The notes below the pieces were generated by a model that worked only from the letters and a program-made list of their open reading frames with translations, was not told where the DNA came from and made no database searches. Shown piece after piece: positions 26,015 through 36,776 of a stretch of DNA of 64,000 nt. This stretch comes from Coniochaeta sp. PMI_546 (taxonomy: Eukaryota > Ascomycota > Sordariomycetes > Coniochaetales > Coniochaetaceae). The position numbers and the translations under genes are program-made. Position 1 is the first letter of the stretch. Every line of letters begins with the position of its first letter. The DNA lies in assembly GCA_021432605.1 (NCBI GenBank), contig MU271150.1:1674001-1738000 (forward strand). The letters are read 5' to 3'.

Positions 26015-28342
26015 TCAACCACTCTTGTTGAACTCCTCGATCGCCTGTCCGATCTTCGCCGTTGCCTCAGGAGCATCGAACTTGTCGAGGATGATTTCAA
26101 CCAGCTATGCATCACAAGTCAGTCTAGTGGACGGGGCAGATGAGAGCCAAGTAAGGATAAGACTAAGACTTGCCTTCGTGCAAGACGGCTCGCCGAATAT
26201 GGGATTACTCAGCAGACTGTCCAGCTCGTCCGCGGAACGGACCAGATACGACTCGGATCTGACCGTCGGGCCGAAGACTTCCAGCAGACCGGTGTACTTC
26301 CACGCCGGGACGTCGTTGTACGAGGCTTCGGGCCCGTGGATCAGTCTCTCGATGGTGTAGCCTTCATTGTTGAGGACAAATCTGGGGCGTCGATTTAGCA
26401 TCAAAAGCAAGCAAGGCTTTGCACAAAAGCATCAAAAGCGAACTAGACCCCCTAACTCACATGATGGGATTGGTCCCGTGGCGGAGCAGGTCGGCAAAGG
26501 CCTGGACCGTCAGCTGCAGGGAGCCGTCGCCGGTGATGAGGATGGACCGGCCGCCGCCCCTCTCCTTGTTGGCGACGGTGGCGCCCACCATGGCGCCCGT
26601 GGCGTAGCCGATGCTGCCGAAGACCTGCTGGGTCCAGGTCGTGAGGTGGGAGGGCAGCGGGGTGGCGTTGAAGCCCGACTGGGCTGTTCCGGTCTCGACT
26701 ATGACCAGGTCGTCCTCGCGGAGGAAGGTGCCGAAGCGCGGCCAGAGCCACGCTTGGGTGATTTTGCTGGCGGGTTTTTCTGGAGGGCTGCTGTATGGCA
26801 CACAGGCCTTGGGTATCTGCCGTCCTGGCAGAGGGTTGGATTGGAGTGATTCGACGAGTTTAGGGAGGAGCTAGAGGAAAGAGTCAGTCTGGAGCGCCGG
26901 TATTGGCTAATAGGAGGACGTAGCTAGTACATACATGCTTCATCTTCAGCGGATATCTGCTGGCCCCAACCTGTTGTGGACCGGACATGTCAGTGGTGTC
27001 CGTGTCTACTTGGCAGATGTACATACCGTGATATAAAACCGTTCAAAGTTGATCGTGGCATTCTTTACAACCTTGACGGTGAACTCGCCACTAGAAAGTG
27101 TCAGTATGATGGGAGCAGGTCGCAAATACAGCTCAGTTACTGACGTGTTCATGTCAGACTAGAGGCGGCACATTAGTCAATTGGTAGGTAGGTACCTTGA
27201 GGGAGAGTCGGGGGGGCTCACAGGATACATGCCGATCCACAAAACCAGGTCAGAAGACTCGACCGCATTCTTCACATCTTCTTTGCTCCCTACTCCGACA
27301 TAAGTCCCGCCATACTGGGGGCTCTTTTCGTCGACGGAGCCCTTGCCCATGGGCGTTGTGAAGACGGGAAAGCGAGTCGCCGCAACCAGCCTGGAGACGT
27401 CTGCCAAGACGCCGTGCCGCGTCGCGCCTAGTCGTCAACGGTCAGTTAGCCGCCCCAGATTTTCAGCATACTTACGAGCTATAGACGCTTACCTCCGTCA
27501 ACAACAATCACGGGATTCGACGATGCTTGGAGGCGTGACCTGATGTCGGACAAGATCTTTGCCTCGAGCTCCTGGTTGTTCGGGTCTAAAGACTTGAATA
27601 GGGGCACGCAGAGCCCGACATCACTGATCTTCTCGAACGTGACATCCGTAGGGATTCCGATGTAGACCGGTTGGCCGTGAAGGAGAAGGGCTGTGCGTGG
27701 GTTAACCATTGCTTCCACACACAAAAAAAAGGGGTTTATGGATTTCATCGGTACCATTGAGCACGCGGTCAATCTCAGAGGCCGCAGTTGCTGCATCTTC
27801 AAGCACTGTTGTGGCGCAGCTGATCTGCTTCGACATCTCATGATAGTTGCTTCACCGAAAAAGTCAGCCTCCCCCGGAAAGTGGCCGAGACGCGGATAGC
27901 GGAACGGACGTACTTGAACTTCCTGTTGCCTAGGGTGTGATGTAGAAGAGCGTGCTCCCGCTGGGACTTCATACTGGGATATCCGACGATGTGGATGACG
28001 GGCACAAACTCGGTGTAGGAGCCGGCCAGGCCGCACAGCGCCGAGGTCTCCCCCGGCCCGAAGGTGGTGACGACCACACCGACTCCGTTGACTCGTGCAT
28101 ACCCGTCCGCAGAGTACGCGGCGACGAGTTCGTTCGGGCTGCCCTTCCAGCTGATGCCGGCATTGAGGATGAGGTCGAGGAAGGCAAGCTCGTAATCTTG
28201 GAGGCATGTAAGTCACGGCATGCTATGATGGAAAGAAATGGCACGTCAAAAAAGTCCTACCTCCAGGGACGCCGAAAATGGACTTCACGCCCAGTTCTTG
28301 AACGCGCTTCAAGAGGTACTCTCCAACTAACAATTCACTCAT
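26015..28342 (-). CDS. Pyruvate decarboxylase (thiamine diphosphate enzyme), cluster copy
   Basis: It decarboxylates pyruvate to acetaldehyde and can form some acetoin by carboligation; cytosolic. Eleven exons splice to 561 aa, the normal PDC length: 28342..28261, 28196..27914, 27849..27755, 27690..27493, 27427..27222, 27158..27145, 27090..27027, 26970..26935, 26870..26461, 26381..26174 and 26104..26015. Active-site residues are present: Asp28 (VPGDYE), Glu50 (NELVAAY), the His pair 113-114 (LLHHTLG), the TPP/Mg motif GDGSLQL (440) to VLNNEGY, and Glu469. Exon 6 is only 14 nt, and the last intron (26173..26105) uses a GC donor (GCAAGT). The high intron number contrasts with the intron-poor neighbours and argues for a fungal origin. 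Whether it works with the acetolactate genes or is simply adjacent is inference. Confidence 0.93.
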
Positions 28343-29536
28343 GATGATTTCTCTAGGTTGCTTTGGCTATGTCTGATGGATGGTGTATTGTATTACTATC
28401 GGGTGAGAAGATGAAGGCACGAACTCAAAGAGACTCAGAGCATCAGTGCTGCGGATATGTGTATATATGTATGGCTCAATATATGTTCATGATATCGCAG
28501 CTCCCAGATACTGTCTCCGATGCAGACCGAACCAGCCATCACAGCTACCATCCTGACGCGGCACAATCACCGTGTCAAGCCGTCTTCCAATCGAGTCTCG
28601 TTGCGCGCTGGCGTGAGTAATCAGCGGCGGGATCACCCCATCCTGATACTGCTCCTCAACTGAAGGATGACCGGGTGTGCATCCAGTATCCAGCATCCAG
28701 CATCATGCGGGAGCGAAACTTTCCTCTCGAGGGCTCCTGCCGCTCCGGACGTTCTGTGACGTCGGTTCCGGGGGATGAGTGGGCATCCCGGGATTGGCCC
28801 ACACCCATTCCCGGCAGAGGGAATGTGCTGAGTGAGAACAATCCCGGCCTGCCGCGCTTGGCAAAAGCCTATATTCCATCCTTCGTTGCAGAGGACTTCC
28901 ATTACGCAGTCGCTCTCTGATTCGCTGCTAATTGCGGATGCCGTGACAAAGACAACCAAGTCGAGATGCAGGGCGGCGCATGTGTGGGCTTCTCTCCGTC
29001 GGCCCAAGCCCTGCATATCCCGGCGGCACAGCTTGTTTCCATGTGTTCCCCAACACATTGGCTGCTGTCGTCCTACATGTTGTCATGCAGGCTGCTGGTT
29101 GTTTAGACCGACAGTAGCCGCCCAGGTCTATTATATCAAAACTCAACAGCGAGGTTGACCGAGACTCCGAAGTCGAGAGTGCTGAGATCTTGATCTTGAC
29201 CTTGGTTCCATCATGACATGCCCCTTTTGCGGGATGACCGAGTTTATCTTCAATCTTGTTATGCACACTTCGAACCGCACGCAGCTCCAGGATTCGAACT
29301 AGCACTACTACGCCACAGGCGCAGCATCGCGTGAAAGGGCGCATATGACTTTGGCATTTGGGCCGGGTGAAGCGTACCATTAGACATCAGAGATGTGGCG
29401 AGGAATGACAAGACATCTTAGATTAAGTAAGTTGCCTACATGCAGTGTATTAGACATGATATCTCTCTATATGCAAATCATACCCCAAGGAGCGTCTAAA
29501 ATGTACAACGTATCTTCTCCGCCCCCCGTCCTCGCG
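28343..29536. promoter_or_regulatory. Promoter of the pyruvate decarboxylase gene and 3' flank of the MFS gene
   Basis: 1.2 kb without a recognisable gene. Both neighbours read leftwards, so the left part is the PDC promoter. A GTTCGAATCC box occurs on the minus strand near 29290, but no tRNA folds. Frames at 28633-29058 and 28928-29380 show no domain. Confidence 0.4.
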
Positions 29537-35843: not shown

Positions 35844-36776
35844 CTACTTGCCAGCCGATGCTCTGCTCGTCCTAATGATTTCTTCTACAACATCCAACTT
35901 GGTCATTCGTTTGATCATCCCCTCAAATATGCCACCACAAGGCATCGCAACGGCAATACGCGCCAACAGCGCGCTCTCTCCCTTCCATATGACAGCCGGC
36001 GGGCTCCTGCTCAACAGGAGCGCCACCACTTCCCCAGCCCATTGCTCCGGCGTGATACCTTTGTCCGTCAGGTCCTGCTGGCTCATAGCCCTCTCGACAA
36101 CCTCGCGGGCCGGCTCGTATATGGATCCTTTCGGCAGCTGCGCCGCGTCGGGGCGGAGATTGTTGTTGCTGATGAAATTGGTCCGCACCCCTGCCGTCTT
36201 GAGGTCGATCACGCTGATGCCGAAGGGGGCCAGCTCGAGACGCATCGTCTCTGACAACATGGCAAGGGCTGCCTTGGACGCGTTGTAGACGCCTTGGAAG
36301 GGGAGGGCAGCCCGTGACCCGACCGAGGTGTGGTTTACCACCATGGCCTGGGCGGGGAGGCGTCCGCTTGCAGCCGACGCGGCGGCGGACTTCATGAGCA
36401 AGGGCATGAAGGCCTGCGTGACGGCGATCTGGGCCCAGACATTAAGGTCGAATAGCTGTCTCGCTGTGTCTAACGACACATCTGCGACCGGCATTGTGTA
36501 GTTCCCGGCAGCGTTGTTGATGAGCATGTTCAGACCTTCGCCGTCTGGGAGGGATGACGAGACGGCGGAGAAGGCTGAAGCGATGGAGGACGACGAGGTC
36601 ACGTCCAAGGTCACAGTCTCGATGCCTTGTGCTGCGAGCGAAGATAGCTTGGACGGGTTTCGCGCCGTTGCGTAGACGTGGTGTCCGGCATTGTGGAGGG
36701 CGACGGCTAGGGCTGCGCCCATTCCGCCGGGAGAGCAGCCGGTTATTAGGATTCTGAGTTTAGTCGAGGACGACAT
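35844..36776 (-). CDS. Short-chain dehydrogenase/reductase (AYR1-like), candidate acetoin reductase
   Basis: An NAD(P)-dependent oxidoreductase of 310 aa in one exon. The Rossmann motif is GCSPGGMGAAL (residues 13-23), a variant of TGxxxGxG with Pro and Met replacing the usual residues. NNAAG follows, then the catalytic Ser of NHTSVGS and the YNASK motif (Tyr-x3-Lys). The C-terminal part (WKGESALLARI, then GMIKRMTKLDVV) resembles the membrane-associated 1-acyl-dihydroxyacetone-phosphate reductase AYR1 and its fungal relatives rather than bacterial butanediol dehydrogenase. Its place after the acetolactate genes makes reduction of acetoin to 2,3-butanediol an attractive but unproven role. The start is the ATG at 36776. 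Confidence 0.88.
   Translation of the reverse strand: MSSSTKLRILITGCSPGGMGAALAVALHNAGHHVYATARNPSKLSSLAAQGIETVTLDVTSSSSIASAFSAVSSSLPDGEGLNMLINNAAGNYTMPVADVSLDTARQLFDLNVWAQIAVTQAFMPLLMKSAAASAASGRLPAQAMVVNHTSVGSRAALPFQGVYNASKAALAMLSETMRLELAPFGISVIDLKTAGVRTNFISNNNLRPDAAQLPKGSIYEPAREVVERAMSQQDLTDKGITPEQWAGEVVALLLSRSPPAVIWKGESALLARIAVAMPCGGIFEGMIKRMTKLDVVEEIIRTSRASAGK

Follow-up and report, generated by a model that had tools for sequence, protein, structure and literature searches.

A divergent pair of genes encoding an acetolactate synthase (ALS) of the AlsS type and an alpha-acetolactate decarboxylase (ALDC) was identified in a 64,000-nucleotide stretch (the window) of the genome of the filamentous ascomycete Coniochaeta sp. 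PMI_546, located on contig C8 (2,357,440 bases) of a 33.5 Mb, 24-contig assembly. As an explanation of the locus as a whole, we consider it likely that these two genes form a head-to-head acetoin module and that the genes beside them, which encode a pyruvate decarboxylase (PDC), a major facilitator superfamily (MFS) transporter and a short-chain dehydrogenase/reductase (SDR), are neighbours not demonstrated to take part in it. Judged from the sequence comparisons below, the pair is a widespread bacterial-type acetoin module in filamentous Ascomycota, and probably a long-held one, and a five-gene butanediol cluster is not supported.

A catabolic-type synthase and a decarboxylase placed head to head

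The ALS gene lies on the minus strand as two exons (34019-33211 and 33025-32146) separated by a single intron of 185 bp, and encodes 562 aa. Its spliced product is 100% identical to the NCBI protein 'acetolactate synthase [Coniochaeta sp. PMI_546]', and that of the nearby PDC gene is likewise 100% identical to 'pyruvate decarboxylase [Coniochaeta sp. PMI_546]', hence the splice models of both genes are confirmed. The unspliced pieces of ALS had already best matched AlsS models, and the whole protein exceeded the cut-offs of two of these, NF006378 (698.9 bits; cut-off 510) and TIGR02418 (659 bits; cut-off 551.1), but missed that of the biosynthetic model TIGR00118 (279.8 bits; cut-off 538.35). 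The genome's own ILV2, encoded on contig C1, displayed the reverse pattern, scoring 720.5 bits with TIGR00118 and 259.7 bits with the AlsS model (cut-off 510). The catabolic type assigned to the synthase in the initial annotation is therefore upheld. ALS and ILV2 share 24% amino acid identity, and the RFDDR motif, which marks enzymes dependent on flavin adenine dinucleotide (FAD), is present in ILV2 and absent from ALS. Amongst solved structures the nearest to ALS were 9zgl, an ancestral construct (572.9 bits), and the AlsS-type 4rjj (508.5 bits), with the yeast ILV2 structure 1n0h scoring 151.7 bits. Identification of the synthase as ILV2 was rejected on the strength of the AlsS cut-offs, the TIGR00118 result and these structure scores, which favour AlsS. 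When the whole genome was searched with the AlsS model, no second AlsS-type gene was returned; the next match was ILV2.

Because ALS starts only a few residues ahead of its thiamine-binding domain, a mitochondrial leader is unlikely, and the missing N-terminal extension suggests that the enzyme is cytosolic. The ALS record deposited for Coniochaeta ligniaria carries extra residues precisely at the site of the window ALS intron, which suggests that the intron lies at the same position there and that the record was spliced differently.

The ALDC gene (34569-35285, plus strand) is intronless and encodes 238 aa. Its product scored 259.8 bits with PF03306 (cut-off 25) and 206.6 bits with TIGR01252 (cut-off 180.65). 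Residues E46, R128, H177, H179, H190 and E237 were kept in all 122 fungal ALDC rows compared, comprising the two of this genome and 120 among the matches listed; in the bacterial rows, E46 and R128 were kept in 73 of 73, and the other four residues in 72 of 73 (one gap). By reference to the Brevibacillus brevis enzyme, we take the three histidines to be metal-binding and R128, E46 and E237 to be active-site residues. With the Pfam and NCBIfam cut-offs both exceeded and the six conserved residues intact, the assignment of this protein to the ALDC family in the initial annotation was borne out.

One correction to that annotation concerns orientation, in that ALDC lies on the strand opposite to the other four genes of the locus, with ALS and ALDC head to head. 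The two genes therefore have one intergenic region in common, of 549 bp between both start codons (34020-34568), which would be the sole possible place for both promoters if these are divergent; co-regulation of ALS and ALDC from this shared promoter region is inferred. A perfect 14-bp palindrome, TCTAGACGTCTAGA, is found within it at positions 34287-34300, where 0.048 such palindromes were expected from 500 single-base shuffles of the region; perfect 14-bp palindromes number six across the whole window.

A second ALDC gene is present on contig C7 (167605-168303), the product of which is 53% identical to the window ALDC and scored 181 bits with TIGR01252, barely above the cut-off of 180.65. 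No ALS was apparent in the 9.9 kb around this gene when read as open reading frames (ORFs), and the AlsS model found none on C7. By eye, the ORFs beside it resemble a metacaspase and a malic enzyme.

Both acetohydroxy acids are substrates of ALDCs. This breadth would suit another account of the window pair, namely that it acts mainly on other 2-oxo acids or on branched-chain amino acid balance, with ALS making acetolactate or acetohydroxybutyrate, ALDC draining the product, and acetoin or its C5 homologue arising as a by-product or as the building block of a metabolite. The second, unlinked ALDC likewise suggests removal of acetohydroxy acids apart from the window ALS. We nevertheless regard this account as very improbable, as two curated models class ALS as the pyruvate-using catabolic type, amino acid synthesis has its own enzyme in ILV2, and none of the 10 flanking ORFs that were scanned was recognised as a biosynthetic partner gene.

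Linkage and descent of the pair in fungi

Linkage in other fungi was assessed by a proxy, the equality in size of the longest contigs of cluster representatives, amongst the ALS, ALDC and PDC matches listed; the proxy is weak for contigs of Mb size and blind where a representative sits on a different contig. By this measure, 37 of the 120 listed ALS rows matched a contig among the 120 listed ALDC rows. As a control, one list was shifted by 1 to 50 bases in ten shifts, nine of which gave no coincidence and the tenth a single one. The shared contigs were shorter than 60 kb in 14 of the 37 cases; the smallest two measure 3,737 and 5,640 bases, which leaves hardly any space beyond ALS and ALDC. 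In Colletotrichum fioriniae the two genes carry consecutive locus tags, COL5a_000369 (ALDC) and COL5a_000370 (ALS). The ALS and ALDC of C. ligniaria are 89% and 87% identical, respectively, to the window proteins. Named organisms amongst the ALS rows include Sordariomycetes as well as Aaosphaeria and Paraphoma, which belong to the Dothideomycetes; Trichoderma and plant pathogens are also among the names. The conserved linkage that the initial annotation had looked to in related genomes was thus found in part, as ALS-ALDC co-occurrence recurs in other fungi, whilst that of PDC with ALS was seen, among the matches listed, only in this genome.

The nearest non-fungal relatives are bacterial, at 42-51% identity among the matches listed. 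For the ALS phylogeny, 14 fungal rows were taken from the 120 listed and 44 bacterial rows from 99, the latter including four outgroup synthases; each named genus contributed no more than two rows, and duplicates of four loci were removed. The 14 fungal sequences formed one clade on a long stem with a Shimodaira-Hasegawa-like approximate likelihood ratio test (SH-aLRT) support of 100%, placed beside Actinomycetota, Bacillota and a mixed group with Acidobacteriota and Pseudomonadota; no nearest bacterial lineage, and hence no donor, was resolved for the clade in this tree. The 54 AlsS-type rows (14 fungal and 40 bacterial) were separated from the four outgroup synthases with an SH-aLRT support of 99%, the outgroup branches being very long. 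For ALDC, 28 fungal rows (the two of this genome and 26 of the 120 listed) were analysed with 24 from bacteria, each genus giving no more than two. A single branch divided all 28 from the bacterial rows, which is all that the tree shows in this respect, as it has no outside root; linked and unlinked fungal ALDC copies were not separated in it.

AlsS above the cut-off is rare in the sampled bacteria, being present in 8 of 398, 2 of 297, 1 of 296 and 4 of 299 genomes in four phyla, counts that each include the genome used as centre. Bacterial als loci were collected by a contig scan with two peptide patterns, and 80 of 180 loci, mostly from Actinomycetota and Bacillota, were inspected. An ALDC frame was found in the flank of 74 of these 80, on the same strand in all 74.

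The sequence data fit a scenario in which the fungal genes came from bacteria and then stayed in fungi for a long time. A more specific history, in which an ancestor of the filamentous ascomycetes gained the als-ald pair once and together, and rebuilt it head-to-head with one shared promoter, many lineages then retaining it as an acetoin valve in the cytosol apart from branched-chain amino acid synthesis, can be offered only tentatively. The bacterial affinity of the nearest non-fungal relatives might also be read as bacterial contamination, recent transfer or a dead remnant. This we hold to be scarcely credible, given that the 2.36 Mb contig bears intron-containing fungal genes, ALS itself has an intron, both frames are intact, and fungal relatives reach 89% identity; moreover, the GC contents at third codon positions of the pair (0.75 and 0.71) lie inside the range of six other genes compared (0.66-0.88). 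Contamination and recent transfer were rejected on account of the fungal orthologues and the ALS intron.

The neighbouring PDC, MFS and SDR genes

The five genes of the locus occur in the order PDC (minus), MFS (minus), ALS (minus), ALDC (plus) and SDR (minus). As the initial annotation had stated, they are consecutive, and no other recognised gene intervenes. The PDC gene (28342-26015) comprises 11 exons in its spliced model and encodes 561 aa. Its last intron, at window positions 26105-26173, has a GC-AG boundary, and the protein spliced accordingly matches the NCBI record exactly. With the yeast PDC structure 2w93 the protein scored 484.5 bits, and it keeps the PDC active-site motifs, presumably D28, E51, H114-H115 and E477 of the yeast enzyme. 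Its identity to the genome's other PDC, on contig C9, is 41.7%, and its best foreign match among those listed is from Pleurostoma richardsiae (80%), followed by one at 59%. From its sequence, the window PDC is a genuine yeast-type enzyme, though a rare paralogue.

The MFS transporter gene (31355-29537, minus strand; 585 aa in a two-exon model of this analysis) gave 46.5 bits with PF07690 as an unspliced frame, and 66.4 bits with the Bcr/CflA-type model TIGR00710, below the cut-off of 200.9.

The SDR gene (36776-35844, minus strand) encodes a 310 aa oxidoreductase of a PRK05693-like group, which scored 107.8 bits with PF00106. Its best NCBIfam model was NF004284 (158.6 bits), below the cut-off of 326, and neither TIGR02415 (acetoin reductase) nor BudC models appeared amongst its best 25 families, the lowest of which scored 62.1 bits. 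The acetoin-forming diacetyl reductase 3wye gave 33.8 bits, the best PDB chain giving 61.6 bits, and the window SDR was not among the 17 rows of a search for an acetoin reductase, in which 16 of 143 candidates were scored. Its role as a butanediol dehydrogenase was rejected, with acetoin reductase models outside its best 25 families and a low score for 3wye. An intronless SDR gene on contig C21 (55776-56552) has TIGR02415 as its top NCBIfam model, at 274.7 bits and below the cut-off of 304.35. Its product is the best candidate found for butanediol formation, and the formation of butanediol by the window SDR, as claimed in the initial annotation, is not supported.

That annotation had treated all five genes as a single pathway block. 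They would then constitute one co-regulated overflow cluster, with PDC either feeding or competing at the pyruvate node, the MFS protein as exporter and the SDR converting acetoin to 2,3-butanediol. The uninterrupted run of five genes is in keeping with such a cluster, as is a published ALS-ALD gene pair of Penicillium digitatum, which sits among five clustered genes that respond to the antifungal protein AfpB, PDIG_14820 to PDIG_14860, according to the main text of the report (PMC10269557). The contig comparison speaks against it, however, as the PDC and ALS lists (119 and 120 rows, respectively, one PDC row without a size being omitted) have a single contig in common, that of the window itself. 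In P. richardsiae, the 80%-identical PDC and ALS sit on different contigs, and no other Coniochaeta-named row occurs among the PDC matches listed, despite the close ALS and ALDC relatives in C. ligniaria. PDC and ALDC rows shared contigs in Lasiosphaeria ovina (6.4 Mb) and L. hispida (4.9 Mb), with PDC rows of 47-49% identity; these contigs are too long for linkage to be shown. The lack of acetoin reductase models amongst the 25 top-ranked families for the SDR also counts against the cluster. The five-gene cluster is accordingly judged unlikely and the claim of one pathway block is not supported; PDC was rejected as a conserved cluster member since this genome alone, among the matches listed, has it on one contig with ALS. 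PDC, MFS and SDR are neighbours here, and pathway membership of the three is not demonstrated.

Ten flanking ORFs, a sample smaller than a full annotation of the window, were scanned for domains, revealing HET (heterokaryon incompatibility), Mob1, Leo1, GDSL lipase and other domains; no transcription factor was recognised among these 10. The HET-domain gene (23145-25524) adjoins PDC and has its domain halves on two frames. An open frame of 1269 codons at 16976-20782 matched DUF7165 at 717.7 bits.

Proposed pathway and comparison with known systems

A route from pyruvate to acetoin by bacterial-type enzymes is a fair inference for the two-gene module, because its ALS is of the AlsS type, its ALDC is a true family member, and the two recurrently co-occur on one contig. 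The FAD-independent, cytosolic, catabolic ALS would join two pyruvates to give acetolactate with the loss of one CO2, and ALDC would strip a second CO2 from acetolactate to yield acetoin, reactions that are predicted from the established enzymology of the two families. Excess pyruvate would thereby be disposed of as a neutral volatile, with proton uptake; this is the most likely use, though a guess. Any reduction to butanediol would more likely be performed by an enzyme encoded elsewhere. The genes presumably descend from bacterial-type als and ald, and would have resided in filamentous ascomycetes long enough for the gain of an intron and for divergence to ~70% identity between genera. The usual view, shared by the initial annotation, is that in fungi acetoin arises only as a by-product of PDC. 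Acetoin is a volatile affecting plants and microbes. If the reading is true and many ascomycetes possess a bacterial-type route devoted to it, acetoin could be a regulated fungal product; a two-gene unit is simple to delete and assay.

The view in the initial annotation that no fungal cluster of such make-up had been described does not hold, because an acetoin biosynthetic cluster of P. digitatum, so named in 2023 and containing the adjacent genes PDIG_14840 (ALS) and PDIG_14850 (ALD), had already been published with deletions (PMC10269557). By its main text, single and double deletions of these genes left growth on potato dextrose agar and fruit infection unchanged and raised the minimum inhibitory concentration (MIC) of AfpB two-fold, hence the genes matter for sensitivity to this antifungal protein (PMC10269557); the term 'GC-MS' (gas chromatography-mass spectrometry) does not occur in that main text by word search. 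The novelty of the Coniochaeta pair is modest, as a similar fungal ALS-ALD pair is on record there (PMC10269557). In a literature search light on subscription journals this was the sole paper found on such a pair, though others may exist, and in the text covered no statement of AlsS type, bacterial descent or spread across ascomycetes was found. The main text of a paper on bacterial genes in Colletotrichum (PMC4320630) contains neither 'acetolactate' nor 'acetoin' by word search.

Several observations weigh against a conserved two-gene acetoin module. As many as 83 of the 120 listed ALS rows have no partner among the ALDC matches listed, and the shared contig of Gnomoniopsis smithogilvyi is 7.1 Mb in length, with the tags N0V93_000543 and N0V93_002116 far apart. 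The second ALDC of this genome has no neighbouring ALS. Deletion of either gene in P. digitatum, as far as its main text describes, altered only the AfpB MIC (PMC10269557).

The P. digitatum cluster resembles the Coniochaeta pair in that adjacent ALS and ALD genes of a filamentous ascomycete are read as serving acetoin synthesis (PMC10269557, main text); in the text covered, neither the orientation of that pair nor the identity of the three further cluster genes is given. Mitochondrial ILV2 has its superfamily and a pyruvate-derived product in common with the window ALS, but the genome's own ILV2 is set apart by the 24% identity noted above, and ALS by its lack of RFDDR and its failure at the TIGR00118 cut-off. 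The window PDC belongs to the same family as the yeast-type PDC1. The bacterial alsS-alsD and budB-budA operons contain the same two enzyme families, adjacent as in Coniochaeta; the bacterial als and ald genes, however, lie on one strand in an operon-like manner (74 loci), whereas the Coniochaeta genes are divergent and the ALS gene has an intron.

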